Virus record (IMG/VR): IMGVR_UViG_3300024346_000438
Location: 1-26,450 of that record
Reading direction: 5' to 3' (one strand)
Source: a virus
Length of the DNA stretch: 26,450 nucleotides
Shown: piece by piece, positions 4,507 to 24,700 of the stretch
Layout: the number at the start of each line of letters is the position of its first letter
Position numbering within the stretch: the stretch's first letter is position 1
Notes under the pieces: model-generated
Told to the model about the DNA's origin: nothing
The model's input: only the letters and a program-made list of their open reading frames with translations
Database searches by the model: none
Program-made: the position numbers and the translations under genes

Positions 4507-4511
4507 GTAAA

Positions 4512-4518
4512 TATTTAT
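4512..4518 (-). promoter_or_regulatory. late-promoter-like ATAAATA for the small terminase gene
   Basis: On the minus strand the order is ACATAAATATTTAC then ATG. The ATAAATA core resembles the T4 late promoter TATAAATA. The gap to the ATG is five bases, which by T4 geometry puts the transcription start at the A of the ATG. Inferred from sequence only. Confidence 0.5.
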
Positions 4519-4527
4519 GTTATGTAG

Positions 4528-4556
4528 TTGATAATCCAACTTGTTGATGTTATAAT
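4528..4556 (+). promoter_or_regulatory. sigma70-type promoter of the early island
   Basis: TTGATA (4528-4533), a spacer of exactly 17 bases, and a perfect TATAAT (4551-4556). This is the best vegetative-type promoter seen in the window. The expected transcription start, seven bases past the -10, falls on 4563, the A of the first ATG of the downstream operon, so the message would be leaderless. The location between divergent genes and ahead of replication genes fits an early or middle phage promoter. Confidence 0.7.
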
Positions 4557-4562
4557 AGTGTT

Positions 4563-4712
4563 ATGATAACAGTAGAAGTACAAGGCCATGGCAAATTTGT
4601 CATACATGCTGATAAGTTGAATGAGTTGCTGATGTGGTTACGAAACAATTCCATGCCAGTCGAAGCTAATATTAGACCACTAAACGAGGATGATACATTG
4701 TTGAACGGATGA
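4563..4712 (+). CDS. small conserved-looking phage protein (49 aa)
   Basis: The product of 49 residues starts MITVEVQGHGKFVIHADKLN and ends with an acidic DDTLLNG. It reads as two beta strands followed by a helix (ELLMWLRNNS). The gene lies directly after a strong sigma70-like promoter and joins the dUTPase gene by an ATGA overlap (4709-4712). That placement and coupling make it a real gene despite its size. Function unknown. The alternative that this stretch is a 5' leader of the dUTPase gene is less likely, because the frame is open exactly from the predicted transcription start to the overlap. Confidence 0.72.
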   Translation: MITVEVQGHGKFVIHADKLNELLMWLRNNSMPVEANIRPLNEDDTLLNG

Positions 4713-5179
4713 AGATCAAACTGATAAAGACACATGAAGATGCTGTGCTACCCACAGCAAATAACAAGGAGCCTGGTACAGGTGACACCGGATTTGATTT
4801 AGTAGCAGTCGAATCCGCAACAATCCAACATCGCGATTCTGTTGTGGTGCCTGTAGGCTTGACAGTGGCGGATATAACACCGGGCTTTTGGTTCAGAATT
4901 GAGCCTAGAAGTGGTTTAGGGTTCAAACACAACATTCAACCACATTTGGGTGTTATTGACAATGGTTATCGTGGCGATCTAGGTGTAAAGCTGTATAACT
5001 TTGGAGAGAATACGTACACAGTGAATAAAGGTGATAAGATCGCACAGTTGGTTGTGTATCCGTTGTTACAACCTGTATTCGAGTTTACAGATACGGTGAC
5101 TGAGTCGAAGCGTGGTGAAAAAGGTTTCGGGTCATCAGACACGTCACCTGATACTCCAGATTGTACTAGTGATGTTTGA
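4709..5179 (+). CDS. dut: dUTPase (dUTP diphosphatase)
   Basis: The product of 156 residues hydrolyses dUTP to dUMP and pyrophosphate, keeping uracil out of phage DNA and feeding dTMP synthesis. All five motifs of the trimeric dUTPase family are visible: I as GDTGFDLVA (25-33), II as PRSGLG (66-71), III as GVIDNGYRGDLG (81-92, with the catalytic Asp 84 and the Tyr 87 that stacks on uracil), IV as GDKIAQLV (108-115), and V as RGEKGFGSS (135-143, the P-loop-like tail that closes the active site). About 13 residues follow motif V. It starts by ATGA overlap with the 49-residue gene and overlaps the clamp-loader start by eight bases, so the three are one operon. The enzyme appears complete and active. 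Confidence 0.96.
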   Translation: MKIKLIKTHEDAVLPTANNKEPGTGDTGFDLVAVESATIQHRDSVVVPVGLTVADITPGFWFRIEPRSGLGFKHNIQPHLGVIDNGYRGDLGVKLYNFGENTYTVNKGDKIAQLVVYPLLQPVFEFTDTVTESKRGEKGFGSSDTSPDTPDCTSDV

Positions 5180-6092
5180 GAATTTATGGGTTGAGAAGTA
5201 TCGTCCTCAGGTATTGGATGAGATGGTATTGTCAGACAAAAACAAATCTGTGTTTAACAAATTTAAACAACAAGAAGGTATACCCAATCTGCTATTTGCT
5301 GGTCCTGCTGGTATAGGTAAAACAAGTCTAGCAAAAATATTATGCAATAATATTTTACAATGTCAATACCTGTACATAAATGCGAGTGATGAGAATGGTA
5401 TCGACACCATCCGATCAAAAGTTACCAATTTTTCTAGAACAAAGAGTTTCGATGGTAAAATAAAATGTATAATTTTAGATGAAACTGATGGATTGACTGT
5501 AGACGCTCAACGAGCATTGAGAAACACAATGGAAGAGCATGCAGCCATCACGAGATTCATCTTAACTGCAAATTACAATCACCGAGTGATACCACCATTA
5601 CAAAGCCGGTGTCAATCATTCGACTTGACCCCACCAGTTGATCGCTGTGTTGATAGAGTGATGCACATACTGTCAACTGAAAATATTAAATTGGCAGACA
5701 AGGACAAATTGCACAAATTTGTTAAAACGTGTTACCCTGATTTGCGTAAATGTATAAATGAAATACAGAAAAATATAATTGACGGGGAACTACAATTAGA
5801 TAATCTGATCAAAGTCAAGGATGCTTTTGTAGAAGCATTGTACAAGATAACAACTCAAGGGTTGTCACTAAAGGCACGTAAAAAGGTTATTGAGAACGAG
5901 CATGTGTTTGGTGGTGACTACACAGAGTTGCTACGCGCAATGTTCAATTACATACACGATGAGCATACGATAGATGATGTGACCAAAGCTGAGCAGTTAG
6001 TCATGGTATCAGAACACATGTACAGAGCTGCGTTCGTGATGGACCCGGAGATCAATTTTTACACTTGCTTGCTAAATCTATCAAAAAAATGA
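5172..6092 (+). CDS. gp44: gp44/RFC-type sliding-clamp loader ATPase subunit
   Basis: The product of 306 residues is an AAA+ ATPase that loads the sliding clamp at primer ends during phage replication. N-terminal LWVEKYRP (5-12) is the classic RFC/gp44 box. Walker A is GPAGIGKT (44-51), Walker B is IILDETD (100-106), sensor 1 centres on TAN (132-134), and the SRC arginine finger is at 145-147. A helical collar domain fills the C-terminal third. The length is close to T4 gp44 (319). I chose the ATG at 5172, because an in-frame start at 5112 adds 20 residues ahead of the conserved box and lies deep in the dUTPase gene. The Walker B reads DETD rather than DEAD or DECD, an acceptable variant. No gp62-like small subunit or gp45 clamp gene is beside it. 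Its 3' end overlaps the convergent AT-hook gene. Confidence 0.94.
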   Translation: MFENLWVEKYRPQVLDEMVLSDKNKSVFNKFKQQEGIPNLLFAGPAGIGKTSLAKILCNNILQCQYLYINASDENGIDTIRSKVTNFSRTKSFDGKIKCIILDETDGLTVDAQRALRNTMEEHAAITRFILTANYNHRVIPPLQSRCQSFDLTPPVDRCVDRVMHILSTENIKLADKDKLHKFVKTCYPDLRKCINEIQKNIIDGELQLDNLIKVKDAFVEALYKITTQGLSLKARKKVIENEHVFGGDYTELLRAMFNYIHDEHTIDDVTKAEQLVMVSEHMYRAAFVMDPEINFYTCLLNLSKK

Positions 6093-6266
6093 ACGTATTC
6101 GGCTCCAACATCTAGACAAAAACGTGCAAATACAAAATTTGTCACAACATTTAGGTTGTTGCTCGACTGATTTTTTACTAGCAGGTTTTTTAGTTGCTGG
6201 TTTTTTAGTTGTGTTTTTCCGAGGCCTACCTCTACGAGGTTTTGATTTTGTAGGTTTATCTGTCAT
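6081..6266 (-). CDS. small basic AT-hook protein with Cys-rich tail
   Basis: The product of 61 residues probably binds DNA. Residues 8-18 hold an AT-hook core (KPRRGRPRK, with the central GRP that inserts in the minor groove of A/T DNA). Then come lysine/proline/alanine repeats (KKPATKKPASKK) like the tail of histone H1. The last third is unusual: CCDKFCICTFLSRC has five cysteines in 14 residues, followed by an aromatic basic end WSRIRSFF. It starts by a TAATG overlap with the upstream gene, so it is translationally coupled, and its end overlaps the clamp-loader gene by 12 bases. It may act as a DNA-packing or transcription factor. The role is inferred from composition; partner and target are unknown. 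Confidence 0.65.
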   Translation of the reverse strand: MTDKPTKSKPRRGRPRKNTTKKPATKKPASKKSVEQQPKCCDKFCICTFLSRCWSRIRSFF

Positions 6267-6814
6267 TAACTTAAATATTGTGATGTGTAACTCACTGCCG
6301 CAGTCGCTCCTGGGAGTGTTGTGTTATCTTTGGGTAAGTTGTGGGCCTCTGGAGATCCAACTGGTGTAAAATCAGATGTTTCTGTGTCTTGTAATGTAAT
6401 CTCTTCTGGTTTGACGTTCACGTTGTCTTGTCTTCTGAGAGAATCTGGAATCTCCGGTGGTGCACCATTTGTGTCTAACATTTCCACAATTTCTTGTGGT
6501 ACGGTAATGAAATTACCATTGTAGAACCCTGGTGCTGTTTCTTGAGTTACGTCTAGATGAAAATTATCCACCCCTGATGCTTGATCAATGCTAGAATTGA
6601 CTGAGGGTCTCAACGCCTTGACACTACTAACTCTCAAGACGAGATCAGAACCAGCCAGTTCTTTGATTTTCTCAATTACTTGTGCTGGTGCTTTTTTAGA
6701 CCACTCGTCAGACTCCCAACCTTCTTTAAATTTAATCACATCACCAGTCAGAAAACCTCCTCCGCTGAATCTGTTGAAGTTACTCTCAAATATTGTGTCG
6801 AATTTACTTTGCAT
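6266..6814 (-). CDS. conserved-looking T4-like phage protein of unknown function
   Basis: The product of 182 residues begins MQSKFDTIFESNFNRFSGGG, then FLTGDVIKFKEGWESDEW, and continues with an alternating helix/strand region to about residue 115 (a VLRVSSVKALRPSVN strand and an ITVPQEIVEML helix). The last 60 residues are polar, Pro/Thr/Asp-rich and probably flexible. This start resembles a family I associate with marine T4-like phages that has no assigned job. The ATG at 6814 is fixed by a late-promoter-like ATAAATA six bases upstream, implying late expression, perhaps as a virion or assembly protein. It is divergent from gp25 and coupled to the AT-hook gene. No enzyme motif was seen. Confidence 0.75.
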   Translation of the reverse strand: MQSKFDTIFESNFNRFSGGGFLTGDVIKFKEGWESDEWSKKAPAQVIEKIKELAGSDLVLRVSSVKALRPSVNSSIDQASGVDNFHLDVTQETAPGFYNGNFITVPQEIVEMLDTNGAPPEIPDSLRRQDNVNVKPEEITLQDTETSDFTPVGSPEAHNLPKDNTTLPGATAAVSYTSQYLS

Positions 6815-6820
6815 CCTAAT

Positions 6821-6827
6821 TATTTAT
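6821..6827 (-). promoter_or_regulatory. late-promoter-like ATAAATA for the 182-aa gene
   Basis: On the minus strand this reads TTATAATAAATAATTAGG then ATG. The core ends six bases before the start codon. The 16-mer TTATAATAAATAATTA is identical to the sequence ahead of the portal gene. It forms one arm of a perfect inverted repeat with the gp25 promoter. Confidence 0.6.
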
Positions 6828-6867
6828 TATAATAAGGAGATTTTCCACGCGTATTCAGTATCTATGG

Positions 6868-6874
6868 ATAAATA
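6868..6874 (+). promoter_or_regulatory. late-promoter-like ATAAATA for the gp25-gp6 operon
   Basis: GGATAAATAATTAGGTA followed by ATG. The core ends eight bases before the gp25 start codon, so a T4-type start would leave about a three-base leader. Same extended ATAAATAATTA as three other sites. Confidence 0.6.
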
Positions 6875-6882
6875 ATTAGGTA

Positions 6883-7377
6883 ATGTCGATTAATATAACA
6901 AGCTTGCAAGCGCGTTCCACAGAGCAGACAGAGTCACGATTCAAATACAAAGATATTGTGTTCGATTTAGTTGAAGATGAGCGGCCAAACACTGATTCAC
7001 TGTATAGTAAGGTAACAAATACAGATATAAGATACACTATAGATGAGGGTGCGATCATGAACAGCATAAAAAATATATTCACCACCAAACCAGGTGAAAA
7101 GTTGCTCAACCCCACGTTCGGTTTAGATTTATCTAGATGGTTGTTTGAACCTATTGATGAATTCAGGGCTCAAGAGATTGGCGAAACAATATATTCCGGA
7201 ATCGAGAGATATGAACCACGTGTTACATTGAAAAATGTTACAGTATTAACCGACCCAGAGAATAATGCTTATAGAATAACCATGGCAATATTGATACCTA
7301 AATTAAATATTAATACAAACCTGGATGCGGTGCTGAACTCTCCAGGATTTGATTTTATAACAAGAACAAAGGATTAA
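6883..7377 (+). CDS. gp25: gp25-like baseplate wedge protein
   Basis: The product of 164 residues is a T4 gp25/GpW-family wedge protein, a piece of the inner baseplate that also nucleates sheath assembly. The core from about residue 55 has the family order: an IMNSIKNIFTTKPGEKLLNP helix-turn, FGLDLSRWLFEP, then a helix EIGETIYSGIERYEPRVTL leading to strands KNVTVL and YRITMAILIP. The N-terminal 50 residues extend beyond the core, making it slightly longer than T4 gp25 (132). It is the first gene after a divergent late-type promoter. The gp6 gene starts two bases after its stop codon. Confidence 0.92.
   Translation: MSINITSLQARSTEQTESRFKYKDIVFDLVEDERPNTDSLYSKVTNTDIRYTIDEGAIMNSIKNIFTTKPGEKLLNPTFGLDLSRWLFEPIDEFRAQEIGETIYSGIERYEPRVTLKNVTVLTDPENNAYRITMAILIPKLNINTNLDAVLNSPGFDFITRTKD
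7368..7373 (+). promoter_or_regulatory. Shine-Dalgarno-like site of gp6
   Basis: AAAGGA five bases before the ATG at 7379. It is the only convincing Shine-Dalgarno sequence I found before any gene here, and it precedes an internal, non-overlapping gene. Confidence 0.45.
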
Positions 7378-7378
7378 A

Positions 7379-9184
7379 ATGGCAGAACAAGACATAACAG
7401 AGTATACATTACCGGAATCCGCGTACATGACGTTTGATGCGGAGAGTCTCAAATCCATGATATTGCAACGAATGCAGGATCAGGGAATGTTCACAGACCA
7501 GATATACGAGGGTAGTAACCTATCTTCATTTATAGATATCATAGCATACAGTTATCATGTGTTGATGTTTTATTTGAACCGGACATCTAGTGAGAGTGTT
7601 TTCACACAGACAACATTGTATGAGAACATGAACCGAATTGTCAAGCTGTTGAACTACAGTCCATTGGGGTACCAGACAAGCGCGCTCACGTTCAGAACAT
7701 TTGCAACCGAAGAATTGCTACCAGGATCGTACACGATACCTAGATACACATTTATAAACAGCAATGGTATTGTGTATTCCACAGACACTGATATATCATT
7801 TACAAAAACAACAACTTCAACTGAACAAATAGATGTGATAGGCTCAAGCTATCTGTTATACCAAGGCAAGTGGGTTGAAAACGCGGCTATCAAAGCGATT
7901 GGTAACCCATTTGAGGTGGTGTTGTTGAACCCTGGTGCAGACACAAAAATCTCACACTTTCATGTACATGTGTATGTAAAAGAGGTCACCACCGGTAAAT
8001 ACCACCAGTTCACCGAGACACAATCCATGTATTTACACGGTCCAGAGGATCTTGTGTTCGAGAAACGCTTGAATGAAAATATGGCATACGAGTTGAAGTT
8101 TGGTAACAACATCAACGGCAAAAGACTGACCGCTGGAGACGAGATACAGATATATTATATACAATCAGCTGGTGAAGAGGGTGTTGTTGGTCCAAACTTT
8201 CTGGATGACACAAAATTGACATTGTACGGTACAACAAAGTTCACACAAATAAAGAATGATGTACGAGCACAGAACATAAGATATATCACATTTGACAACC
8301 TGGAAGCACTGTACATGTCGAACAATGCTGGATCAACTGCACCACAAGACCGTGAGAGTGTTGATCAAATCCGAGAAAAAGCCCCGGTACATTTTGCTAG
8401 CAGGGATCGGTTAGTGACTTTGACAGACTATGAATCATTCATGTCCAGGAACTATAACAAAATACTCTCATCTACTCATGTTGTTGACAATCAAACATTT
8501 TTGGATGGTCACTTCCGATACATGTTAGAGGATGTAGGTATAGACAACCCTAATCTCGAGAGCAGAATAATGTTCAATCACCTGGACGTTGCATCATCCA
8601 ACACATTCAACAACATTTATGTATACAGTGTACCCAACGTGTCTCAAAACACATCAGTTCAACCCATGACAAATTTTCTGGGGAACGCTCAAAAAACAAT
8701 CATTCTCAACAACATGAATCAGCAAAAGATGGTGTCACATGAAATAATAATGATGGATCCGGTGTATGTTGCGGTAAATATAGCCACAAGAGGAGCAGGT
8801 GAAGTAGAGGACCCAGTGCTTTCTGATAGCACCGTGCTCCAAGTGAAGAGAGCACCTAGTGTGTTGAGAGATGATGACGCAATCAAAGACGAGCTGGTCA
8901 ATATTTTCAACAATTACTTCAGCTCTACAAATGCCGAGCTCGGACAAGCCATAAGCACCGCAGATTTGAGCGTCGAGATGCTGGCGGTCGCTGGTGTTGA
9001 GCAGATCTCAACTGTACGTACAGACACCGGGCAATCCACACCAGGTTTGAGCTTGGTTATTTGGAACCCGGTGTATGTGTCTGACACCACCATCACCACA
9101 CAAAATGTCAAGTTACCATACTTTAAATACCCGTATGTGCATGATGCATTCAATCTGTACAACAAGATTGAAATAGTAGCATAA
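7379..9184 (+). CDS. gp6: gp6-like baseplate wedge protein
   Basis: The product of 601 residues is a T4 gp6-type wedge protein (gpJ-like fold). In T4, two copies per wedge form the iris-like ring of the baseplate. The N-terminus has the family pattern: a helix SLKSMILQRM, then SSFIDIIAYSYHVLMFYLNR, then SVFTQTTLYENMNRIVKLLNYSPLGYQT. A middle segment ASRDRLVTLTDYESFM is the typical linker into the C-terminal domain, which includes VYVAVNI and a helix DDAIKDELVNIFNNYF. T4 gp6 is 660 residues, so the length fits. It follows gp25 as in many T4-like phages, and the next gene starts two bases after its stop codon. Confidence 0.92.
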   Translation: MAEQDITEYTLPESAYMTFDAESLKSMILQRMQDQGMFTDQIYEGSNLSSFIDIIAYSYHVLMFYLNRTSSESVFTQTTLYENMNRIVKLLNYSPLGYQTSALTFRTFATEELLPGSYTIPRYTFINSNGIVYSTDTDISFTKTTTSTEQIDVIGSSYLLYQGKWVENAAIKAIGNPFEVVLLNPGADTKISHFHVHVYVKEVTTGKYHQFTETQSMYLHGPEDLVFEKRLNENMAYELKFGNNINGKRLTAGDEIQIYYIQSAGEEGVVGPNFLDDTKLTLYGTTKFTQIKNDVRAQNIRYITFDNLEALYMSNNAGSTAPQDRESVDQIREKAPVHFASRDRLVTLTDYESFMSRNYNKILSSTHVVDNQTFLDGHFRYMLEDVGIDNPNLESRIMFNHLDVASSNTFNNIYVYSVPNVSQNTSVQPMTNFLGNAQKTIILNNMNQQKMVSHEIIMMDPVYVAVNIATRGAGEVEDPVLSDSTVLQVKRAPSVLRDDDAIKDELVNIFNNYFSSTNAELGQAISTADLSVEMLAVAGVEQISTVRTDTGQSTPGLSLVIWNPVYVSDTTITTQNVKLPYFKYPYVHDAFNLYNKIEIVA

Positions 9185-9185
9185 C

Positions 9186-12100
9186 ATGGCAACGTACGAA
9201 CAACTGGCTGGAACAAGCTTCAACGATGTTGTTGTACCATTTTTATCTGAAAATGGTTTAGGCGAAGAAGACACGTGCACTCAGATACTCACAGGTTACA
9301 CATTAGGTGTCACACCATTCACCTTCACTGCTGATATATCCGCTTTAGAGTCAACATATCTAGGTCCAAGTTTGAGCCGGTTGATCTGGGACATGGGAGA
9401 TGGATCCACCATGACTGGAGTGAGTGTTACCAAACAATACATGTATCCTGGTACATATCAGATAACGACTATATTCACAGATCAAAACGGTAAAACTCAC
9501 AAAAACTTACTCACACAGACAATTAAGGTATACAATTATATACCAGATTCACTGGTGTGGTACACTCCAGGTATTGCAGATCCCATGGGCGGAAAACCAG
9601 AACGTGTGTTGACTGGTCAACCAAGTGAAGATTTAACTATATACAGATACAACAGCTGGCAATCATGGGCGACTGTGTCTGGTGACGGTGGTTATTACAT
9701 CAACCTGTATGCACAAGGTAGTAAATCTCGTCCGTTGACACAAGACCAGTATTGGAAAAACCCAGACACTCATTTTATACCCAGTTGGCGTTTTGTAGAG
9801 AATAAAGACAGCACAGTGCCGGTTGAACGTGTACAAACAGACGACAACGAATACATTTATGTAAAGAATGAAAATGGAGTTGTTGTCCGGACTGATCCAT
9901 CAGACAGCTCTGCATTTTTTGCTGGTACATCTGGACTAAAAACTGTCAATTACATAGATGACAACTCCAACAGATTGACCAGCGCTAGGACTAATGAGAA
10001 AACCGGGAGCAGTCGAGCCGTGTATGACAACACCAATGTGTCTAGTGATGCCGAATTTGATTTGCTAGGCAAAACTGATGAGAACAAAGACATTATACTG
10101 TTCGCTTCATTTGATACCAGCAAATTCCCAGGCACGGTGTATGATCATGAACTGGACAAATACGAAAACTTTAAGAAAGAATATTTTCAGATATATGAAA
10201 CACAAAAGGTTGGCTTGCCCATGCAAGTCAAATTGGAAACTCCTAGATATCTAGATATAACAGCAAACGGTCTCAAAGAGTTCCCTATTAGTGACAAGAA
10301 ATACCTAGGATCACCTTTTGCAATTGCGGTGAGAACGCATGGTGATGATGCAGTGGTGTGTACGGACGATTTGGTGCCGCTGAGCTCCAGATGGTCAGCT
10401 AGCTCCACAGCCTTTTCAGCAAACGACATAACAACTGATTTGATAACACAACAAGCGTATGTAACTACATATTTGAGTGGAGCCGGTACCACGTTTGAAC
10501 GTATCACAGAGCCGTTCAAATCTGAAATAGACTTTAAAACATGGGATGTTGGTATGGTGAAAGCTAACAACGTATACAACAGTCACGTAATAATATTGTT
10601 GTCTGATTACAATGGCGCTTCTCCATCACAATACAATGAACCCAACGGAAAAAAGGTCACGTTGCTGTTGACAGAGTTGATTGAATCACAACAGAACTTG
10701 TTGAGGGATGCTGATCGAATTGATGTTGAATGGAATGTTGATAGTGATGCCCCACCCAGGATGTGGAAGACCAAAGCCGGGTTAGAGTATTATGGGTACA
10801 TATCACCACAATCTAGATACAAGCCAGGTGATGCGATAGACATGACATTGCTAGAGGTCAAGGAATCATTTGACACGCCCGGATCGTATTTGACATTTGT
10901 TGATCTGGATGCTCCATGGGAGGTTGTTAGCAAGAACAACAAGTATAGACTGGTAACTGAAACATTAATAGACCCGCCTACATACTTCAACAACGAGGTG
11001 TTGTATTATTATCTTGCTAACCCATCAAATGACACAGTAACACAGGTGAAACCAGTGTATTACCGTGAGTATTCATATGGACCTAACGGGTACACACAGA
11101 CATACACACCACCAGTGACAACAATTTCTCCAGGTAACAGTGGCATGTACGGTTTTGCCACAGATCCAGAGGGTGGTACTATAACAGTTGATAGTGACAC
11201 AGACAAAGTCATTAGATTTTACAGAAATTTAGGAACACAGGCAGAATATCACATCAAAGACTTGTTTCCACAAGAGGTACAAGCGCAGCATTTCCCGGGA
11301 GATCCTGATGCATATGGGTATAGTCCCAGTTGTGTGAGTTTGGACAAGAATTTAGATTATTGGATCACTTTATATGACACGGTATCCACAGTGAAGGTAG
11401 ATGGTATTACCAATAAAATAATAGCATGCGCGGTACCTGATGAAGTGAACCCACTGGTTGATAGCCGTACTACTGACCCGTCGGATATGTGGTCAGCAGA
11501 CGCTGAGTATAGACTAAACACCGTGAATGGTCGTCCTGGTGAGTATGGTGAGCAACTGATCAACCCCACGTATGTTGAGACTTGTAAAAATAATGATATC
11601 ATTGTGACATACACCAACACATTGTGTAGTTTTGTTGTCAGATTTGACCCCACCGGGAGAGTCAAGCACAAATATGAATTGCCGGGTGAGGACAGGTATT
11701 TCCCTGGTGACATTTGCGTTGATGTAAATGACCACGCCTGGGTTGTGGTGGAATCTACTGGTTTGAGTGTAGATGGTTCAGTTGATATGAATCCAATACG
11801 CAGTGAACTGCATGAGCTAGATGAAGAGTTCGAAGTTATAACAATCATAGACAGTGTGAAGGGTACTGAGTATACAGACATGATGCTACCGGCTCCGCAT
11901 ATGCCGGAAACTGAGGAACTTTCATTCACAATGGATCTGGAATTCAACTGGCAGCGTCAAGAGTATGATGAAGTCGCTTTAATTTTGGAAGATCTTGTAT
12001 CATATGAACCAAATCCACGATTGACATTTGAAGAGACAAACACTTACATAATAAAAAACAAATTTTGGAATGGCGGTGAACATCAATTTGAATTCCGGAA

Positions 12101-14807
12101 TGTTGTCCGGGATGATGAGGAAAGAAATTTAGACGACCCTGCCACCATGTGGTCTCGAGAAGGTGATTTGATAACACAAGATGAAAATAACATCACTGGT
12201 TATGGTACGGACACTCTCACGATCACAATAACAAAAGACACTCCCCCGGTGTTTTTGATGGTGGATGTGTTAAACCCTGGAATTCAATGTGTTATAAATG
12301 TTATAAAGAAACCTGTAATCGAGAGAAGATTGGGTGAAACGTTTGATATAATAAACAACATGAGTTTTGTGATCCCGGATAACAATAACAACATCTGGTT
12401 CGCGTGGGGCTCCCGATATTGCTCCAGATATCATGTGAGAAACAAAACCATAGACAAGACCATAGGTCTAGGTAGACCTTTTGAGGACAAAAGATATCAC
12501 CCACTTCGCCCAGAAACATACGATCGTAGAGACAACGCCGGTCGCCGGAGTGCTTTAGAGGCATTATCATTTGACACAGCTAACAATCTGCTGGCAATGA
12601 ACAATCAGGACAAACGCTTGTATTGTATCAATTCAGATAACATAGCGTTGAGTGCATTCATCAACATAGAGAGTTATCAACAACCACCTGAGGATTTCAC
12701 ATGGATACAATCAATCTGTAGCACCAAACTAGCACAAGAAGATGACTTCATGTTGTATCCTGACTCGTATATGACAAAAGAACAAATACAGGTGTTTTTG
12801 CGTAATGTCAACCATGGCGAGAATGTAGCATATATTGATGATACAGCCGGTGAGGGTAATTTAGAGGTCAAGAGTTTACGAGGCAATGCACCAGTGGAGC
12901 AAGAGCAATTCACTGGAGAGAACGAGCAACTGGCTCGTGCATATCAATCGTACAAAAACATACTTGACACAAATAACGGCAATGAACTGACTTTTAGAAC
13001 AAATCATGGTGCAAATCCTGTACAACCAACTGGTTTAGAGGAAGAAGTCCGGGCGATAGGTGACTGGACCGGGTGGAGGTGGATAAACAAGTACGACATA
13101 CGAGCAGTCGAGACAGATGAAACAACCGGATTTATCAGTTTGACTGGAGCAAGCAACGAGTTCGAACTGGTACCAGCCAGAGGATTGCATGAATTGATCA
13201 AAATTAATGAAACAAGCGATTTTGCCGGGGTGTTGCGTAGTTATATCAAGCAACCGGTGTTACGAAACAGTCCTAAATTGTATGAAGAGTTGTTAGATTC
13301 GGTGTTCGGTACAAACACAAGCGATCCAAACACTTTGGGAAAGCGTGTGTATGAGAAAATCGCCAACTTCCTACAAAATCATAAAGATGTAGACACATGT
13401 ACCATCGAGGCTCTTGAAGGTTTGGCTAAGATGGTGAATTACAACTTGTTACAAGTAGCACCTGATCTACCAACAGAGATTCAACGACTTGTGGATATGT
13501 TGTCAGTAAATTTCAGTCATTTACGTGGAGTCATGACTGACAATCAGACGAGCTTTGAGGATGGCAAGAATTTAGGTTCAGAGATACTGATGATTTACCC
13601 ATGGCGACCACAACACTCATATGACAGAGGAGATTATGTACAGTTTGGACAAGATGCTGATGGTAGCAAGAGATACTACCAAGCGATCGAGCCAATACCA
13701 TATGAAGAGACACATGTGAATGAGATTCCACCAACCAGGAGCAGCAACTGGATAGAATGGCCAGACGGTAAAGTACGTAGTCGACACATGTCCAGTGTGG
13801 ATCGATCATATCAAGGTAAAACTCCAGAATGGCGATCGGAATTTTACAACAATTTGCCAGTCAGAATACAATTGGTTGATAAATTGCATGTGGAACTGGG
13901 CAATAAATTTGTGTTGTTGGAAGAGCACACAAACAAATACACCCTGATCGATCCGATGATTGTTGGAGTTGAAGATGGTAAAACATACAGTATCAACTTC
14001 ACAGAGGATCGATTCACAGTGGAGGATCCAAACACACGTTCTAGACAATCCCCAGAATTCATGGGAACTATAGGTTTCACTGACGGTTTGATAACCATAG
14101 TGGATGAGATGGTCACCATGATAGGCACTCCGTTGAGTAACAATCCTACCATAACACTATTTAGAGACAAAGTGTATAAATTCCAAATAGATAGTCCAGG
14201 TCATCCGATCAGATTCACATATGAGCCTGGTTCGGATGCTCAACTTATCAGAAATTATGTCAGCAAACAGGATGTTGAGTTCACCGCGGATGTCGGTGAG
14301 GTGATCCTGCGTACAGACACACACCCAGTAGATGGACCGATACCGAGTACAATATACTATCAGAGTGCCACTGATCCATCAATTGTTGGAGCTATCAAAA
14401 TCGTTGATATACAAGGTATTGATAGTTACTCATCTTTACTTGGTGGGGTCACAGCGTATGATGTGACACTTGACTCATCTGTGCATGGTGTTGTAGATAA
14501 ATATGGATGGGGTATGTCGTTTCCAGAACAAGCAAACGCTTGGCAATTCTATAAATTATTTGAGTACATACCAGATGGTAATGATGATCAACAGATAATA
14601 AACAGCGTGATTGATTGGACACCAGCTGATGATCCACTGATCAGTAGGGGGAAAACAACTGTTTCATACAATTTGAGCTCGTATGATGATTGGACCCGTG
14701 ATTATGGCTTGATGGACACTATGTTTGAAAAGGCCATTCGAGAAGGTCTAGAGTTTTTTGATGGTGTTGACTCGATCACCAACTATTTAAACCTGGATGA
14801 TGAGTAA
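9186..14807 (+). CDS. giant multidomain baseplate/adhesin-like virion protein (1873 aa)
   Basis: The product lies directly after gp6, where T4-like phages place gp7 and other outer wedge proteins, so it is probably a baseplate-attached virion protein. Visible parts: a PKD-like beta-sandwich near 43-117 (WDMGDG at 68-73, then YPGTYQITTIF); a propeller-like section near 650-860 with repeated motifs such as GMYGFATDPEGGTITV and ICVDVNDHAWVVV; more propeller-like strands near 1065-1150 (NNIWFAWGSRYCSRY, LYCIN); a helical DVDTCTIEALEGLAKMVNYN segment near 1400; a short carbohydrate-binding-like motif near 1470-1500 (YDRGDYVQF ... YYQAIEP); and a cupredoxin-like domain near 1652-1745 (NPTITLFRDKVYKFQIDSPG, ending YYQSATDPSIVGAIKI). 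No Shine-Dalgarno precedes the ATG. Domain calls are by eye; a gp7 equivalence is only positional. Confidence 0.75.
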   Translation: MATYEQLAGTSFNDVVVPFLSENGLGEEDTCTQILTGYTLGVTPFTFTADISALESTYLGPSLSRLIWDMGDGSTMTGVSVTKQYMYPGTYQITTIFTDQNGKTHKNLLTQTIKVYNYIPDSLVWYTPGIADPMGGKPERVLTGQPSEDLTIYRYNSWQSWATVSGDGGYYINLYAQGSKSRPLTQDQYWKNPDTHFIPSWRFVENKDSTVPVERVQTDDNEYIYVKNENGVVVRTDPSDSSAFFAGTSGLKTVNYIDDNSNRLTSARTNEKTGSSRAVYDNTNVSSDAEFDLLGKTDENKDIILFASFDTSKFPGTVYDHELDKYENFKKEYFQIYETQKVGLPMQVKLETPRYLDITANGLKEFPISDKKYLGSPFAIAVRTHGDDAVVCTDDLVPLSSRWSASSTAFSANDITTDLITQQAYVTTYLSGAGTTFERITEPFKSEIDFKTWDVGMVKANNVYNSHVIILLSDYNGASPSQYNEPNGKKVTLLLTELIESQQNLLRDADRIDVEWNVDSDAPPRMWKTKAGLEYYGYISPQSRYKPGDAIDMTLLEVKESFDTPGSYLTFVDLDAPWEVVSKNNKYRLVTETLIDPPTYFNNEVLYYYLANPSNDTVTQVKPVYYREYSYGPNGYTQTYTPPVTTISPGNSGMYGFATDPEGGTITVDSDTDKVIRFYRNLGTQAEYHIKDLFPQEVQAQHFPGDPDAYGYSPSCVSLDKNLDYWITLYDTVSTVKVDGITNKIIACAVPDEVNPLVDSRTTDPSDMWSADAEYRLNTVNGRPGEYGEQLINPTYVETCKNNDIIVTYTNTLCSFVVRFDPTGRVKHKYELPGEDRYFPGDICVDVNDHAWVVVESTGLSVDGSVDMNPIRSELHELDEEFEVITIIDSVKGTEYTDMMLPAPHMPETEELSFTMDLEFNWQRQEYDEVALILEDLVSYEPNPRLTFEETNTYIIKNKFWNGGEHQFEFRNVVRDDEERNLDDPATMWSREGDLITQDENNITGYGTDTLTITITKDTPPVFLMVDVLNPGIQCVINVIKKPVIERRLGETFDIINNMSFVIPDNNNNIWFAWGSRYCSRYHVRNKTIDKTIGLGRPFEDKRYHPLRPETYDRRDNAGRRSALEALSFDTANNLLAMNNQDKRLYCINSDNIALSAFINIESYQQPPEDFTWIQSICSTKLAQEDDFMLYPDSYMTKEQIQVFLRNVNHGENVAYIDDTAGEGNLEVKSLRGNAPVEQEQFTGENEQLARAYQSYKNILDTNNGNELTFRTNHGANPVQPTGLEEEVRAIGDWTGWRWINKYDIRAVETDETTGFISLTGASNEFELVPARGLHELIKINETSDFAGVLRSYIKQPVLRNSPKLYEELLDSVFGTNTSDPNTLGKRVYEKIANFLQNHKDVDTCTIEALEGLAKMVNYNLLQVAPDLPTEIQRLVDMLSVNFSHLRGVMTDNQTSFEDGKNLGSEILMIYPWRPQHSYDRGDYVQFGQDADGSKRYYQAIEPIPYEETHVNEIPPTRSSNWIEWPDGKVRSRHMSSVDRSYQGKTPEWRSEFYNNLPVRIQLVDKLHVELGNKFVLLEEHTNKYTLIDPMIVGVEDGKTYSINFTEDRFTVEDPNTRSRQSPEFMGTIGFTDGLITIVDEMVTMIGTPLSNNPTITLFRDKVYKFQIDSPGHPIRFTYEPGSDAQLIRNYVSKQDVEFTADVGEVILRTDTHPVDGPIPSTIYYQSATDPSIVGAIKIVDIQGIDSYSSLLGGVTAYDVTLDSSVHGVVDKYGWGMSFPEQANAWQFYKLFEYIPDGNDDQQIINSVIDWTPADDPLISRGKTTVSYNLSSYDDWTRDYGLMDTMFEKAIREGLEFFDGVDSITNYLNLDDE

Positions 14808-14810
14808 ATA
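14804..14810 (+). promoter_or_regulatory. variant late-promoter-like GTAAATA for the second giant gene
   Basis: GAGTAAATATTGTAT then ATG at 14817. The core differs from ATAAATA at the first base and overlaps the stop codon of the upstream gene. Spacing to the ATG is six bases. It is weaker evidence than the sites with ATAAATAATTA. Confidence 0.35.
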
Positions 14811-14816
14811 TTGTAT

Positions 14817-17800
14817 ATGGCAATTGATTTAGACACAACAAGATTTTTCATGCCTGTTAACAGTGTTGTTGACAGTAAGATTGACATCAAAAATGCTGAT
14901 GACAATGTTGTACCTTTCACATACACGGATTGGTTGGACAGATCCAACCTGTCCACTAGTAAGACCAGAGAAGATTACTCACAGCAATACAATGCATATC
15001 TACGTAAATGGCGTGAAGTGTTTGATGATGCAAACCGGTCACAAAAGCAGCATGTAATACAAAAATACAAAACAGCGTTAAAAAATATCGCAGTAAACTT
15101 CACAACTGACGAACAGAAGAGATTTTTATCAACACTAGATTACAAGAACCCTCGGCATGTGGAGTCTGCAATTGCCTTGTTCGCTCAGAAGCTCAAGGAA
15201 ATTTCTGTTTATTACGCAACCGAGAGACAAAACACCAAGCAACAGAGAACAGATGCTGGTAACACTGGTACAACTGAACAGTTTGAACGTTTTGTAAAGA
15301 ATGTAGTCCCCCGACTCGCGAGGCAACGTGAGATAGTGACTGGTGATTTACGCAATGATAAATTGGTTGTAGATTCTGATGACTCACGTGTGGTGGTCAA
15401 GGTGGTGGAGCTGTACGATATAGGTGAATCAAATCCAAAAACTGGAGCTATAGAGTATGACGCCAATTTGTATTTAGATTACGAGCAAGCCGTGAGGCAG
15501 TTGCTTGTTGAGTGTACACCAATATTGAATTTGACAGCAGATGGTAGTGTGAGCTTGACAGCCAGCAACGTGTCCATAGATGACCAAAGTGTCTCGTTGC
15601 TGGATTACAGCAATTTTGAAGATTACATCAAAGATGAATCCGGTCTGAACATCAAAAATATACAGGAGTATATACCTAAATTGTTGGGCAGTGACATCAT
15701 GTATCTATCGGCAGGTGAAACGTACCAGTTGATCGAGGCCACACACCCGTGGCGAAACATGTTCAACCGCTACCTGCCAGCAATAAACAACACCAAAGAA
15801 ACTGTGTATCGCACCAAGGCACAGATTGGCGATTTGTACATTCCCTCGAATCTAGGTATAATGACTTTCTTCAGTCACAACCCAGTTTTGACTGTCACAG
15901 ATGCTGATTACACCGGTAAATTACCGGACCCGTCAAAATTTGGACCAAGTCCATACACGGGTAGTAACGATATACCAATATCATTACAAGGTGATGTGAC
16001 TTGGTTGAAGGCTGATGTTTCGAATGACAAGCTCGCGGGAGATATTGTAGTGCCTAAGCATACACCGAAATTCTACGCGTATAGGTCAGATGAAGAGACA
16101 AAAAATTACGCTAGGTATGGTGTGAGTAGGTGGCAAGACCCCACTGGGTTCTTCGATGGTGATGGCAACAGAAACTGGGCCAATCCTGACGTTTTTCCGC
16201 CACGTGCACACAACATATATGATATAGATTCCCGACAAGAAACCTTGATGGTGAATGACAAAACCGCCACTGAGTGGAGCACAGATATACATGGTAATGA
16301 GTATGTGACCATCAAGCAAATCAAATCAACCCGCGCGCCACTAGAGTTTGGTTTTGGAGAAGGGGAGGATGACGCAGAGCCTGAGGTGAGATGCATAACA
16401 ATTGATGGTGGTGACACTTTGGAGAAACAATTGGAGTGGTTTGAAGCAGGTGACGAGCCATACAACATTTATGATGGTGGTCGTCATCCAGGTATTGACC
16501 CCAAAATTGAACAAGCACCTAGACTGCTACCTTTTCCGGATTTGCGAGTGAACAAAAAATATCGGAACGAAGATGGTACGTTTCGTGAAGCTCTAGAACC
16601 AACAAATGCATTTTATTATGGACCAAATGCTGACGGTTCACAAATGTTGTTACAGTCAATAACATACAAGGGATTCACACCCACACCGTTTTATGATTAT
16701 CAAGCATATTGTGGGTTGTTTACAGATGAAGCGTGTGGTGTCACTGATCCATCTGCTTTGGATTGTAATGTCTTTGATGGTTATGCGTTTGGTACATATT
16801 CTGATGGAGTGAGCAGCTCTGGTGATGACAATCTGTACATGTCTCTTGATCGAGGAATAGTGGATCTACTGGCCGGAGAAAACGTGGCTGTGGATGGTAA
16901 GACAGCCACTGTGACTCGTGATCATGACATGCCTGCCAGATACACTGAATCGTATGACAATACCACCACAATTTCTGCATCAGCCTACGTCACGATGGTG
17001 GTATACGATCACCAACCTAGTGATGCGGTCAAGTCGAGTTTCAACTCCACATCTGTACCTCTAGTAGGTTCAGGTGACCCTGTCGGTACAGTGAGCATGC
17101 AATCAGTTTCTGCTGGTCGAGGCAACGAGATCACAATAACAGGAGACGGAGTAAGAAAACTAGATCAACTTGTGTCAATATACAATTCAAACAACACTGT
17201 TAAAATAGACACAGAGTCTGTCGTGGGTGGTGATCTGTATATCAAAGAAGATGTTGAGATGAAACTTACAGGCAGCAAAGACATAATTGTGACGAGTGAT
17301 TGTGAATTGACATTGTATGACACAGCATTAGATCACGTTAAATTTATAGCTGATGTGTCGTCTGCAGATGATCAAATCACCCGGAACAGTTCCACACAAT
17401 ACACGTTCGGAGTGTTAGGTGTGAACGACCCGGAGAAGATGACACAGGTGTTGACCAACGTGATAAACACTGCAAACAGCAACGGTGATCTGCAGATTAT
17501 GGCAAGCAGATACATGGTTGATGGTTATATTGATGGTTTGAGATTGATGCAAAAATCTCCTGGTCCTGGTGGTAACACACCTCTCATGGGCAGCATGCTA
17601 ACTGGTTCACAGAGATTTTTACGCACCATCGACATAATAGAAACGGTGGAATACACACGAGATCAATTCGGTTACCTCACTGGTCCCATCAACAAGACGA
17701 CGTTTTCAGCGGCCGCTTCTGGTGACAGCTTTGTCAATGGGTCATCAACCAACATAACAACAACTCAACACATTGAACTGCTAGCAGAAACACCAGGGCC

Positions 17801-19874: not shown

Positions 19875-19891
19875 TAATAATGTATGTTATA

Positions 19892-19898
19892 ATAAATA
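19892..19898 (+). promoter_or_regulatory. late-promoter-like ATAAATA for the portal gene
   Basis: TTATAATAAATAATTAA followed by ATG at 19904. The core ends five bases before the ATG, predicting a start at the ATG itself. The 16-mer TTATAATAAATAATTA also occurs before the 182-residue minus-strand gene. Confidence 0.6.
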
Positions 19899-19903
19899 AT
19901 TAA

Positions 19904-21679
19904 ATGGCACAACATCAACAAAATCATGGTTCTCGTTCTACTTTTGGTAGAAACTTCATGCAATATGTAGCATCAAAGTTACCTTATAATCAGAGCTACA
20001 TAATGGATAATGTGCAAGAATTGAACCCCAAGTTCAAGCATTTTTACGACACTGGTACCAAAAAAGATGTGGCTCTCGCACAGCACAGTATATCACAACA
20101 AGTGGTGAGCTGGGACCAGGGTGTAGGAGCAGTGGCGATTGACAAGAACTATCATCAGTTCATGTATGCCAATGTGGATCTAGACAAAGAGAAGCGATTG
20201 AAGGATTATCGTGTGATGGCCGCATATGCAGAGGTGGGTGATGCATTGGATGAGATATGTGATGATGTGATCAACATAAACGAGGACACTGGCAATGCTG
20301 TGAATGTGACGTTCAAAGATTCAGACTTGTCAGAATCTGCAAAAACTGAACTAACCAAGGAATTCAACAACATTGTCAAGTATTTTGATTTTGAGAACAA
20401 GGGATGGGAATATTTCCGGGCCATGATGGTCGATTCAGAGGTGTACTTCGAGCATATAATACATGAAGATCATCCGGAACGTGGTATTTTAGGTGTGTTG
20501 CTGGTACCCACAGAGTTGGTTGATCCAATATATGACAATGTACAAAACACATTGATCAAAGGCTATTTATTCCGGCAACCCATACTCAACCCCAAAACAC
20601 AACAAGTTGAGAAATACGAGTATATCCCAATGGAGAAGAGCCAGATAACCTATGTGCACAGTGGTATATGGAATGAGGATAAAACCATGAGATTACCGTT
20701 CATTGAGAATGCTAGACGTGCATATAGACAATTGACAATGATTGAAGATAGCATCGTGGTGTATCGACTGGTCAGAGCCCCGGAAAAACTTGTGTTCAAT
20801 GTGGATGTGGGCAACATGCCACCACCAAAAGCGGAAGCATATCTTAAAAAGTTGATGCACAACTACTGGAATCGAAAGACTTTCGACAACAATCAATCCG
20901 GGCAAGTTAACGCATTCAATCCGCAGAGCATGCTGGATAGTTTTTGGTTTGCAAAGCGTGCTGGTAACAACGGCACTGAAGTCACACAGTTAGCAGGCGG
21001 TCAAAACCTGGGAGAGTTGACAGATTTGATGTATTTTGTCAAAAAGCTATACAAAGCACTCAAAGTGCCGAGTAACAGACTAGAAGCAGAAGCTAGCTAC
21101 AGTGATGGTACAGAAATACTGCGTGAGGAATTGAAATTTGCCAAATTCATCATGAGACAACATCAACGTTTCGCAGATGGTATCAAGAGCATGTTCATAA
21201 CACAATTGAAAATGAAGAATTTGTGGAAAGAGTACGGTTTGAAGGAGGATCACATACAAGTGAAGTTCAATCCACCAAGCAGTTTCTATGCATTGAGAGA
21301 GCAACAGATATTTGAGATAAAAAGCGGTAATTTCCAAAACATGAGTGGTAACGACCTGGTGTCCAACACATATTGTCAGAAAAAATATCTGGACTGGACG
21401 GATCAAGATGTGGTAGCTAATCGTGGTTTCCTCAAGAAAGACAAAGAATTGCAATGGGAGCTAGCTCAAATCGAGGCTAGTGGCCCTAACTGGAGAGAAG
21501 CACTACAATCCGGTGAGAGTGAAGGTGATGACATGGGTGGTGTGGGTGGATTAGGTGGAGGTTCAGCATTACCCGCAGGAGACACGGGAGCTCCACCTGA
21601 CTTTGGTCCTCCACCAGATGCTGCTACAGATGATACAGCCCCGGAACCAGATGCCCCGGCTCCTCCAGAGTTAGACTAG
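19904..21679 (+). CDS. gp20: gp20-like portal protein
   Basis: The product of 591 residues is the T4 gp20-type portal, the dodecamer at the unique capsid vertex through which DNA enters and to which the neck attaches. It carries the strongly conserved portal core: ALDEICDDVININ near 111-123, a clip/wing region, then RLVRAPEKLVFNVDVGNMPP (about 288-307), KAEAYLKKLMHNYWNRKTFD, a TEVTQLAGGQNLGELTDLMY segment, and ALKVPSNRLEAEAS before the stem and crown helices. T4 gp20 is 524 residues; the extra length is a C-terminal tail (about 535-591) of Gly, then Pro, Ala and Asp (GGVGGLGGG, PAPPELD). Start fixed by a late-type promoter five bases upstream. Confidence 0.95.
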   Translation: MAQHQQNHGSRSTFGRNFMQYVASKLPYNQSYIMDNVQELNPKFKHFYDTGTKKDVALAQHSISQQVVSWDQGVGAVAIDKNYHQFMYANVDLDKEKRLKDYRVMAAYAEVGDALDEICDDVININEDTGNAVNVTFKDSDLSESAKTELTKEFNNIVKYFDFENKGWEYFRAMMVDSEVYFEHIIHEDHPERGILGVLLVPTELVDPIYDNVQNTLIKGYLFRQPILNPKTQQVEKYEYIPMEKSQITYVHSGIWNEDKTMRLPFIENARRAYRQLTMIEDSIVVYRLVRAPEKLVFNVDVGNMPPPKAEAYLKKLMHNYWNRKTFDNNQSGQVNAFNPQSMLDSFWFAKRAGNNGTEVTQLAGGQNLGELTDLMYFVKKLYKALKVPSNRLEAEASYSDGTEILREELKFAKFIMRQHQRFADGIKSMFITQLKMKNLWKEYGLKEDHIQVKFNPPSSFYALREQQIFEIKSGNFQNMSGNDLVSNTYCQKKYLDWTDQDVVANRGFLKKDKELQWELAQIEASGPNWREALQSGESEGDDMGGVGGLGGGSALPAGDTGAPPDFGPPPDAATDDTAPEPDAPAPPELD

Positions 21680-21706
21680 AATACAGTAGTTTTACCCGGT
21701 GTTGAC

Positions 21707-21713
21707 ATAAATA
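21707..21713 (+). promoter_or_regulatory. late-promoter-like ATAAATA for the fibre gene
   Basis: GACATAAATAATTAAGAC followed by ATG at 21722. The core ends eight bases before the start codon, predicting about a three-base leader. Same ATAAATAATTA 11-mer as at three other genes. Confidence 0.6.
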
Positions 21714-21721
21714 ATTAAGAC

Positions 21722-24700
21722 ATGTCACATCAATATCAGCCAACTAGTTATTATGATTGGCCCAACAGAACTCATGGGCTATTTTTACAGGATGGTGTGT
21801 ATAAATATGTCCACTATGATTATTATGGTGGAGATGAATTGCACACCCAAAATGTTGTTTTCCGTAACTCACAATATGTTACGCATGACAACACACACGT
21901 TAGATTTTTAAACAAATCTGATTTGCACCTGTATGACACTACAGATATCAAGATACATGACAGTGGTACATTCACGATGTACACGAGTGCCTCACCGTCT
22001 GCACGTAAATTTGTTGTTGATGAGATTGGTCGTGTGGGTATCGGGCTAGATCATGATAACGAGCATAAAAATAGAGGTGAACAGCCTAGCTTTGATCTTG
22101 ATGTTAGAGGTCAGGTGGGTGTTGAGGATTACATCTATCACAATGATGATGTCGATACATACATGTTGTTTGGATCCGACCTCACTGGGCATTATGTGAA
22201 CACAACTGGTGATATACACGATTTGTATCCGGATGATCAGGACGAGATCAATTTCAGAGTTGGTGGTATAGACATACTACAAATGCAAACGCGAGATGTA
22301 GCACATTTAGAAAGTGGCACACAACCCACAGGTGCTCAGGATCACATGACCATAAACAAATATCAATCTGACGTTGATGTGGTGATTCGTACTGTGGATG
22401 AACCAAACATGGTGTTTGTGGATGGACTCAACAACCGAGTGAGTATTGGTGATAGTGAAGATGCTCCTCAAGCCACACTAGAAGTAAAAAACCACCCGGA
22501 TGCTGGTGCATTTGATGTACCATTGGTACAATTAAACAACAAGGACACAGACAAACAATTGTTGGACATTAACGCTGACAACATCGATGCTGATGTGATC
22601 AGCGTGAGCGCTGACATGCTGGTGAGCGCTGATGTGATCACATTGACCGCGGACAGCATGACCACCGGGGATGTTCTTAACGCCACAGCAGACAGTCTCA
22701 CCACCGGTAGCTTGATACACATGACCCACACTGGTAGTGACAAATCAGAAGTATCGTTGGTACATTTTGAAAGCACTGGTGACCGTGGAGATGATACCAA
22801 TCAGACTGTGTTGCTGGATTTAAATTTTGACACAACTTCCGGCACAGGGGCTCGTGCGTTGAGAATCGATAGTGAACAAACAACAGGTACTGTTGTTGAG
22901 GTAGACACTACAAAACTCACATCTGGAAAAGGTTTACATATACACACTGACGATAGAACCACAGGTGAATTGTTACATCTCCACGACGTGAGCACTGCTG
23001 ATAGCGCTGGAGCGCTTGTGAAGATTGAACAAGACGGCGACCGCGCAGGATCCGCTGCTAGTGTTGGTATAGATGTCAACTTTGACACAACTGCCAATCC
23101 AAACGCCAGAACGTTGAGAATTGATTCAGAACAGACTGACGGGACTGTTATAGAAGTTGACGCAACCGAGATCACATCCGGTAGAGTGTTGGCAATAGAT
23201 GCTGACAAATTAACCACAGGTAAGGGTATCGAGCTGTTGATGGACACACGTACAACCGGCACCGGGTTGCACATACATGATGACAGCACGGCTGATAGCG
23301 CGGGTGCACTTGTGAAGATTGAACAAGACGGTGATCGCTCCGGATCCGCTGCTAGTGTTGGTATAGATGTCAACTTTGACACAACTACTAATCCAAACGC
23401 CAGAACGTTGAGAATTGATTCAGAACAGACTGACGGTATCGTTGTTGAGGTAGACACTACAAAACTCACATCTGGAAAAGGTTTACACATACACACTGAC
23501 GATAGAACCACAGGTGAATTGTTACATCTCCATGATGACAGCACGGCTGATAGCGCTGGAGCGCTTGTGAAGATTGAACAAAACGGCGACCGCTCCGGAG
23601 CAGCTGCAAGTATTGGTATAGATGTCAACTTTGACACAACTACTAATCCAAACGCCAGAACGTTGAGAATTGATTCAGAACAGACTGACGGTATCGTTGT
23701 GGAGCTGGACGCGAGGAGAATAACGAGTGGCACCGGTGTTTCATTGAGTGCTACAGATTTGAGCACAGGTATTGGTATGGACATGCTGTTTGACAATCGT
23801 ACCACTGGTACCGGTCTGCACATACAAGACACACATGATAGTGACCATGCTGGAGCACTTGTGAAGATTGAACAAGACGGTGATCGCTCCGGATCCGGTG
23901 CTAGTGTTGGTATAGATGTCAACTTTGACACAACTGCCAACGCAAACGCGCGTGCGTTGAGAATTGATTCAGAACAAACAACAGGTACTGTTGTTGAGGT
24001 AGACACTACAAAACTCACATCTGGAAAAGGTTTACACATACACACTGACGATAGAACCACAGGTGAATTGTTACATCTCCATGATGACAGCACGGCTGAT
24101 AACGCCGGTGCACTTGTGAAAATTGAACAAGCCGGTGACCGCTCCGGAGAAGCTGCAAGTATTGGGGTGGATATCAATTTCGATACAACTGCCAACGCAA
24201 ACGCCCGAGCATTAAGAATCGATTCAGAACAAACAACCGGTAAAGTGGTGCAGATTGATGCTGATGAGATCACCTCTGGTGAGGTGATTAGAGTGGATGC
24301 TGACAAGATAACCACTGGGAGCATATTGCATCTAGAGAGTAATTCTAACAGTACCGGTACACGATCGTTGTTTAAATTGAACAACGATAACACAGCTGCA
24401 ACCAAAACGACGCTGGCACATGTACGTAATGATGCGATTGCTGATGGTATAGAGACTGTATTGATTGAATCTACCGCCAAAGACCCGAATCCTGTGCTGG
24501 AGCTGAGAAACAGCAATGCTGGTGTGGACGACAACACAACACACAAAGGATTTCCCGCAACATTGAATTTCAATCGATCCAGCAACACCACTGCAGACGA
24601 CATGGGACTGGGCTTGATTACGTTCCAAGGTAAAAACTCCGAGGATGAGGAGATAACATATGCTGACATGCTGGTGAGAGCAACTGACCAGGCAGACACA

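Follow-up and report, generated by a model that had tools for sequence, protein, structure and literature searches.

Late transcription in phage T4 is a textbook system, in which the promoters are drawn well upstream of a leader with a Shine-Dalgarno site. Position -6 holds the last base of the late promoter TATAAATA, and position -7 that of the sigma70 -10 hexamer. The location of the T4 late box at position -10, the reading of TATAAATA by host RNA polymerase with gp55, gp33 and gp45, and an AT-rich stretch downstream of the core have been described (PMC2988020), and late promoters of the form NATAAATA were reported for the cyanomyophages S-PM2 and Syn9 (PMC2984593). A published attempt to identify late promoters in pelagimyophages did not succeed (PMC7029224), and the consulted passages of the paper on phage Melnitz give 15 late promoters without remark on their spacing (PMC9004378). 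Leaderless phage messages are known singly, for example lambda cI (PMC9031893), and bacterial leaderless genes are recognised by a TA-rich -10 box located ~10 bp ahead of the start codon; they account for ~20% of all genes in the Actinobacteria and for 40% in Deinococcus-Thermus (PMC3160421). In this study, we analyzed a 26.45-kb fragment from IMG/VR (IMGVR_UViG_3300024346_000438; "the window" means this whole stretch) of an uncultured T4-like myovirus, in which six ATAAATA or GTAAATA cores lie 5 to 8 bases before ATG codons. We consider it probable (about 0.86) that these are T4-type late promoters with leaderless or near-leaderless starts, that late and many early genes of the clade share this placement, and that the programme is largely leaderless.

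All six cores proposed by the initial annotation are present, at spacings of 5, 6, 8, 6, 5 and 8 bases (Table 1), and the 11-mer ATAAATAATTA is common to four of them without a mismatch. The window contains 17 RTAAATA sites compared to 7.5 +/- 2.7 in shuffled sequences, and 0/100 shuffles reach 17. We estimate that 17 random sites would give 0.02 hits in the 56 positions 5-8 bases before the ~14 gene starts, where six were seen. The annotation placed transcription starts on the ATG or at most 3 bases before it. This is supported with one correction, namely that the T4 geometry is strictly leaderless only at spacing 5, and spacings of 6-8 would give leaders of 1-3 nt. In the proposed mechanism, the late cores would be read by host RNA polymerase together with a gp55-type sigma factor of the phage, and transcription of the six genes would begin either at the A of the start codon or 1-3 bases earlier, in which case ribosomes would have to initiate on leaderless or nearly leaderless messages.

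The placement of the cores is not due to chance, because orthologues of the six genes retain them amid flanking DNA that has diverged among relatives. Among distinct orthologue start regions, a late core was found 5-14 bases before the ATG in 10/11 for the 4506 gene, 11/11 for the 6814 gene, 7/13 for the 6883 gene (at least 2 of the 13 regions are cut at contig ends), 11/11 for the 14817 gene, 71/74 for the portal gene at 19904 and 5/5 for the 21722 gene. The spacing is exactly 8 in all five orthologues of the 21722 gene and 6 in nearly all of those of the 6814 gene. It ranges over 5-8 for gp25 (6883), and over 5-9 among the matches listed for the 14817 gene, where TAAATA is kept in 11/11. In some portal relatives, read by eye, TAAGTA replaces TAAATA.

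The main statistics for the clade come from 13 contigs of up to 217 kb with 1,068 genes; clade contigs and loci carry labels in G or L (such as G001, G012 and L028). TAAATA lies 4, 5, 6, 7, 8 and 9 bases before the ATG of 0, 81, 67, 33, 22 and 28 genes, respectively; the corresponding numbers for TATAAT are 1, 2, 35, 13, 15 and 4, with a permutation mean of ~3. In ten contigs, the complete ATAAATA was found 33 times at gap 5, 16 at 6, 18 at 7, 16 at 8, 11 at 9 and once at 4. In the same ten contigs, 112 of 207 ATAAATA sites lie 3-12 bases before an ATG, compared with 4-28 for same-letter permutations that do not overlap the motif. The initial annotation implied a motif commoner upstream of genes than within them, and this was found: ATAAATA is the top or second upstream 7-mer in 8/8 larger contigs (33 upstream sites against 0.4 expected in an example contig), and the gap edge is sharp at 5.

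For transcripts beginning at the A of the ATG, the gaps must be 5 for late and 6 for sigma70 promoters. The lower edges that we observed, 5 for TAAATA and 6 for TATAAT, are one base apart and match the last-base positions of -6 and -7. Because this one-base difference is what the T4-late and sigma70 geometry predicts, early genes look leaderless too. The TATAAT sites are furnished with a real -35, as a TTG lies 22 or 23 bases upstream of 48/63 TATAAT sites with an ATG gap of 6-8, and in 45/199 TTG-N19/20-TATAAT sites the gap to an ATG is exactly 6. The leaderless late programme proposed in the initial annotation is supported, but the annotation missed that the programme is not confined to late genes, as sigma70 early promoters are placed alike. 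Many early genes would be transcribed from host sigma70 promoters, and given the matching placement of these and of the gp55 late promoters, the whole programme would be largely leaderless, with operon-internal genes probably starting by translational coupling. The motif, its spacing and conservation, the gene classes and gp55 are direct observations; start sites and leaderless translation are predicted here from promoter spacing. In addition, at gap 5 after TAAATA, 103 ATG and 32 GTG codons of the clade contigs open frames of at least 80 aa, and some of these GTG codons may be genuine leaderless starts.

The window holds a sigma70-type promoter of this kind, predicted from its spacing to be a leaderless early promoter. 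The 49-aa open reading frame (ORF) behind it opens an early operon, running through an ATGA overlap into the dUTPase gene (4709) and then the clamp loader gene gp44 (5172). The -35/-10/ATG arrangement is kept before the orthologue in L028, G001, G002, G004 and G010, where the -10-to-ATG spacing is 6 in four relatives and 5 in one. At 4507-4562 this promoter and the late promoter of the 4506 minus-strand gene are divergent, with overlapping -35-like parts (TTGATAATCCAA read both ways), and the pair separates a late operon from an early one.

The two promoter classes are distributed by gene function. Of the structural homologues, 53 have a late core, 0 a sigma70 promoter and 45 neither; replication homologues comprise 15 with sigma70, 8 with a late core (6 of them phoH) and 69 with none. 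The late core is present at only ~1/4 of genes, and motif genes are located at transcription-unit starts: among the co-directional ones, 26% begin no more than 10 nt from their upstream neighbour, versus 66% of genes without a motif. Shine-Dalgarno tetramers are close to background: they precede 1/63 motif genes and 17/252 others in the first set of contigs (background 6.7%), and 3-11% of genes in eight larger contigs (background 4-8%). Genes without the motif show only weak A enrichment before the start.

The ATTA following the core, suggested earlier as an extra promoter element, does exist in the form of a preference: +2 is T in 71-76% of late sites, +3 T in ~60%, +4 A in ~55% and +6 a purine in ~80%, and the pattern is absent from other TAAATA sites. 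The +6 purine persists at gaps of at least 6 (~80%) and at least 8 (82%), versus 53% at other TAAATA sites. The base preceding the core is T in about a third of sites, and variant cores such as TAAGTA also occur. A -35-like TTG(A) was found 21-24 bases upstream of TAAATA in ~36% of late sites of the window's sublineage (G001, G002, G004, G006, G007, G009, G010 and the window), including TTGGAT and TTGATA, each 22 bases upstream, at the 4506(-) and portal promoters. In the larger contigs G011-G015, TTG is close to background. One reading is that late sites with this element are overlapping early and late promoters. The gp55-type sigma predicted from the cores was found in 8/10 large relatives, with 42-50% identity to HTVC008M gp55, and the gp45 clamp gave weak matches in four contigs (E 6e-6 to 2e-4). 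Beside the gp45-like gene, a conserved ~110-aa protein (GYTFDGTPI...AHNQQEADSL...NKF) is encoded at 132418 in G012, 88954 in G013, 52019 in G014 and 55975 in G015.

Compared with T4, the clade has the same ATAAATA core, the AT-rich downstream stretch and the placement before virion genes, with a gp55 homologue in relatives. As stated in the initial annotation, T4 late genes have leaders, with cores 12-35 bases before ATG and mostly a Shine-Dalgarno site between. In contrast, the clade cores lie 5-12 bases before ATG without one, and roughly one in three late sites of the window's sublineage has a -35-like TTG, an element that T4 lacks. The cyanomyophages share the core and gp55 but differ in their gaps, which are mostly 10-45 in S-SSM4, Syn9 and P-SSM4, with almost none at 5-9. 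ATAAATA at gap 5 was found nowhere in T4, S-SSM4 and Syn9 and once in P-SSM4. The Pelagibacter phages HTVC008M and Mosig and the Methylophilales phage Melnitz have 9, 6 and 3 sites at exactly this gap, without Shine-Dalgarno in the would-be leader. In HTVC008M these belong to gp48 cap, gp25, gp2, tape measure and other genes, at annotated starts. A second late class in HTVC008M has gaps of 18-27 with Shine-Dalgarno, and Mosig shows the same two classes. Like the clade relatives, all three phages have gp55 (annotated); unlike the clade, they have a second subset at 15-32 with Shine-Dalgarno, and a Shine-Dalgarno site at almost half of their motif-free genes. A milder form of the arrangement is thus present in the cultured pelagiphages. 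The clade shares with bacterial leaderless genes the diagnostic -10 box near ATG, and differs in being a phage lineage with two promoter classes placed alike. In the open literature that we searched on leaderless phage programmes, we found single genes and remarks only, and no report of this arrangement.

We considered whether the motif is a translation signal rather than a promoter, that is, a Kozak-like enhancer, rich in A/T, that serves a host lacking Shine-Dalgarno, with messages carrying ordinary leaders. The clade is almost throughout without Shine-Dalgarno sites, and adenines before the start codon aid initiation in Flavobacterium (PMC6847099). This explanation is unlikely, because the motif is the T4 late consensus and is confined to ~1/4 of genes, where it marks unit starts and precedes virion genes. 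Its spacing varies from 5 to 12 yet keeps a sharp lower edge, replication genes have the TTG-N19/20-TATAAT sigma70 promoter instead at matching spacing, and motif-free genes are only weakly enriched in A.

Alternatively, the promoters could be of the T4 late type with the real start codons downstream in frame, leaving normal leaders inside the called genes, as start codons were assigned from sequence only. We regard this as very unlikely: in several relatives the portal match extends to the N-terminal end, starting at residue 1, the spacing is gene-specific and conserved, above all for the 21722 and 6814 genes, and the annotators of HTVC008M picked the same gap-5 ATGs. That the sites are AT-rich spacers, TAA stops and ATG context without function deserves almost no credence. 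ATAAATA does contain the stop TAA, and the GTAAATA at 14804 overlaps the stop codon of the gene upstream, but the permutations refute this idea, and the core is conserved across portals only 50-60% identical.

Several observations weigh against a leaderless programme read from T4-type late promoters. Spacing 5 occurs in only ~31% of late sites, and at spacings of 6-12 the messages would have leaders of 1-7 nt, unless the start site is shifted onto the ATG. The window fragment itself has no gp55, and of the two factors to be sought in the genome, gp55 was recovered in relatives but the profile search for gp33 found nothing convincing. Gene starts were taken from the longest ATG frame and not from a trained gene finder. 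Finally, the claim of a genome-wide leaderless late programme has exceptions, since leaders are retained by the genes for the major capsid protein, the sheath and some tubes, in some cases with Shine-Dalgarno.

These exceptions are high-copy virion genes. The tail tube gene has leaders of the TAAATA-attAGGAGGacaaattt-ATG type in G001 and G010, the sheath gene has a gap of 19, and the major capsid gene is preceded by AAGGAG in G008, G009 and L018 and has gaps of 22-27 in G006 and L017. One tentative idea is that early and late genes alike use leaderless initiation by default and that the promoter-to-start distance acts as a dose switch, with low-copy products (portal, wedge, protease, tape measure) leaderless and high-copy products (capsid, sheath, some tubes) given a leader, often with Shine-Dalgarno. 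This is only a suggestion and not a result, because the G004 tube gene has no such leader, and some sheath and capsid homologues in the larger contigs score near-motif. Around the presumed capsid promoter upstream of gp23 in G009, L017 and L018, there is a conserved inverted repeat AGGTT...AACCT and then GAGT, followed by AAGGAG in G009 and L018.

The window has portal, baseplate wedge and clamp loader genes of T4 type (PHROGs matches: portal 6e-112, gp25 3e-30, gp6 1e-40, gp44 6e-76). By portal, cyanomyophages are the annotated phages closest to it, and since the identity is only ~34%, it belongs to no cultured genus that could be found. Closer relatives are environmental contigs only (21 loci, 58-86% portal identity); a portal profile found more than 560 environmental loci, with some contigs of 199-217 kb. 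At 21722-26449, a very long fibre-like ORF, which contains many internal repeats that are almost identical to each other (TSGKGLHIHTDDRTTGELLHLHD), is truncated by the window end.

Table 1. Promoter cores and genes in the window (spacing and leader in bases; leaders are predicted)
Feature	Position	Strand	Spacing to ATG	Gene, predicted leader or match
Late core ATAAATA-tttac-ATG	4512-4518 (element 4507..4518)	minus	5	gene 4506(-); leader 0 nt
Late core ATAAATA-attagg-ATG, ATAAATAATTA	6817..6827	minus	6	gene 6814(-); leader 1 nt
Late core ATAAATA-attaggta-ATG, ATAAATAATTA	6868..6878	+	8	gp25 gene 6883; leader 3 nt
Late core GTAAATA-ttgtat-ATG	14804..14810	+	6	gene 14817; leader 1 nt
Late core ATAAATA-attaa-ATG, ATAAATAATTA	19892..19902	+	5	portal gp20 gene 19904; leader 0 nt
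Late core ATAAATA-attaagac-ATG, ATAAATAATTA	21707..21717	+	8	large repetitive fibre-like gene 21722; leader 3 nt
Sigma70-type promoter TTGATA (4528)-N17-TATAAT (4551)-N6-ATG (4563)	4528..4562	+	6	missed by the initial annotation
49-aa ORF	4563..4712	+		67-98% identity in relatives
gp53-like wedge protein	703			
dUTPase	4709	+		PHROGs
Clamp loader gp44	5172	+		PHROGs
Baseplate wedge gp25	6883	+		PHROGs
Baseplate wedge gp6	7379			PHROGs
Portal gp20	19904	+		phrog_213

A search for the host via the portal found no relative in 84,980 GTDB genomes. A Bacteroidota host was considered because Shine-Dalgarno sites are missing and phage bS21 has been reported (PMC9723584). This candidate was rejected, as the Bacteroidota promoter TAnnTTTG is absent before starts, while TATAAT with TTG is strong. 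A phage-encoded ribosomal protein bS21 is present in G012 (~167040-167222; L159) and G014 (~48800). The GTDB relatives of the G012 protein among the matches listed (80) are all Verrucomicrobiota, nearly all from Opitutae or its orders, which is a hint of the host. Stretches of two such genomes have no Shine-Dalgarno signal, but also no leaderless -10 peak. Phage tRNA-Met genes were considered as a source of extra initiator tRNA and rejected, being by eye not of the initiator type.

Leaderless placement may explain why the late-promoter search in pelagimyophages failed, and promoter placement would mark the start of genes precisely in the genomes of many environmental phages. Leaderless and leadered late genes stand side by side in the cultured HTVC008M and Mosig, so the idea is testable now.

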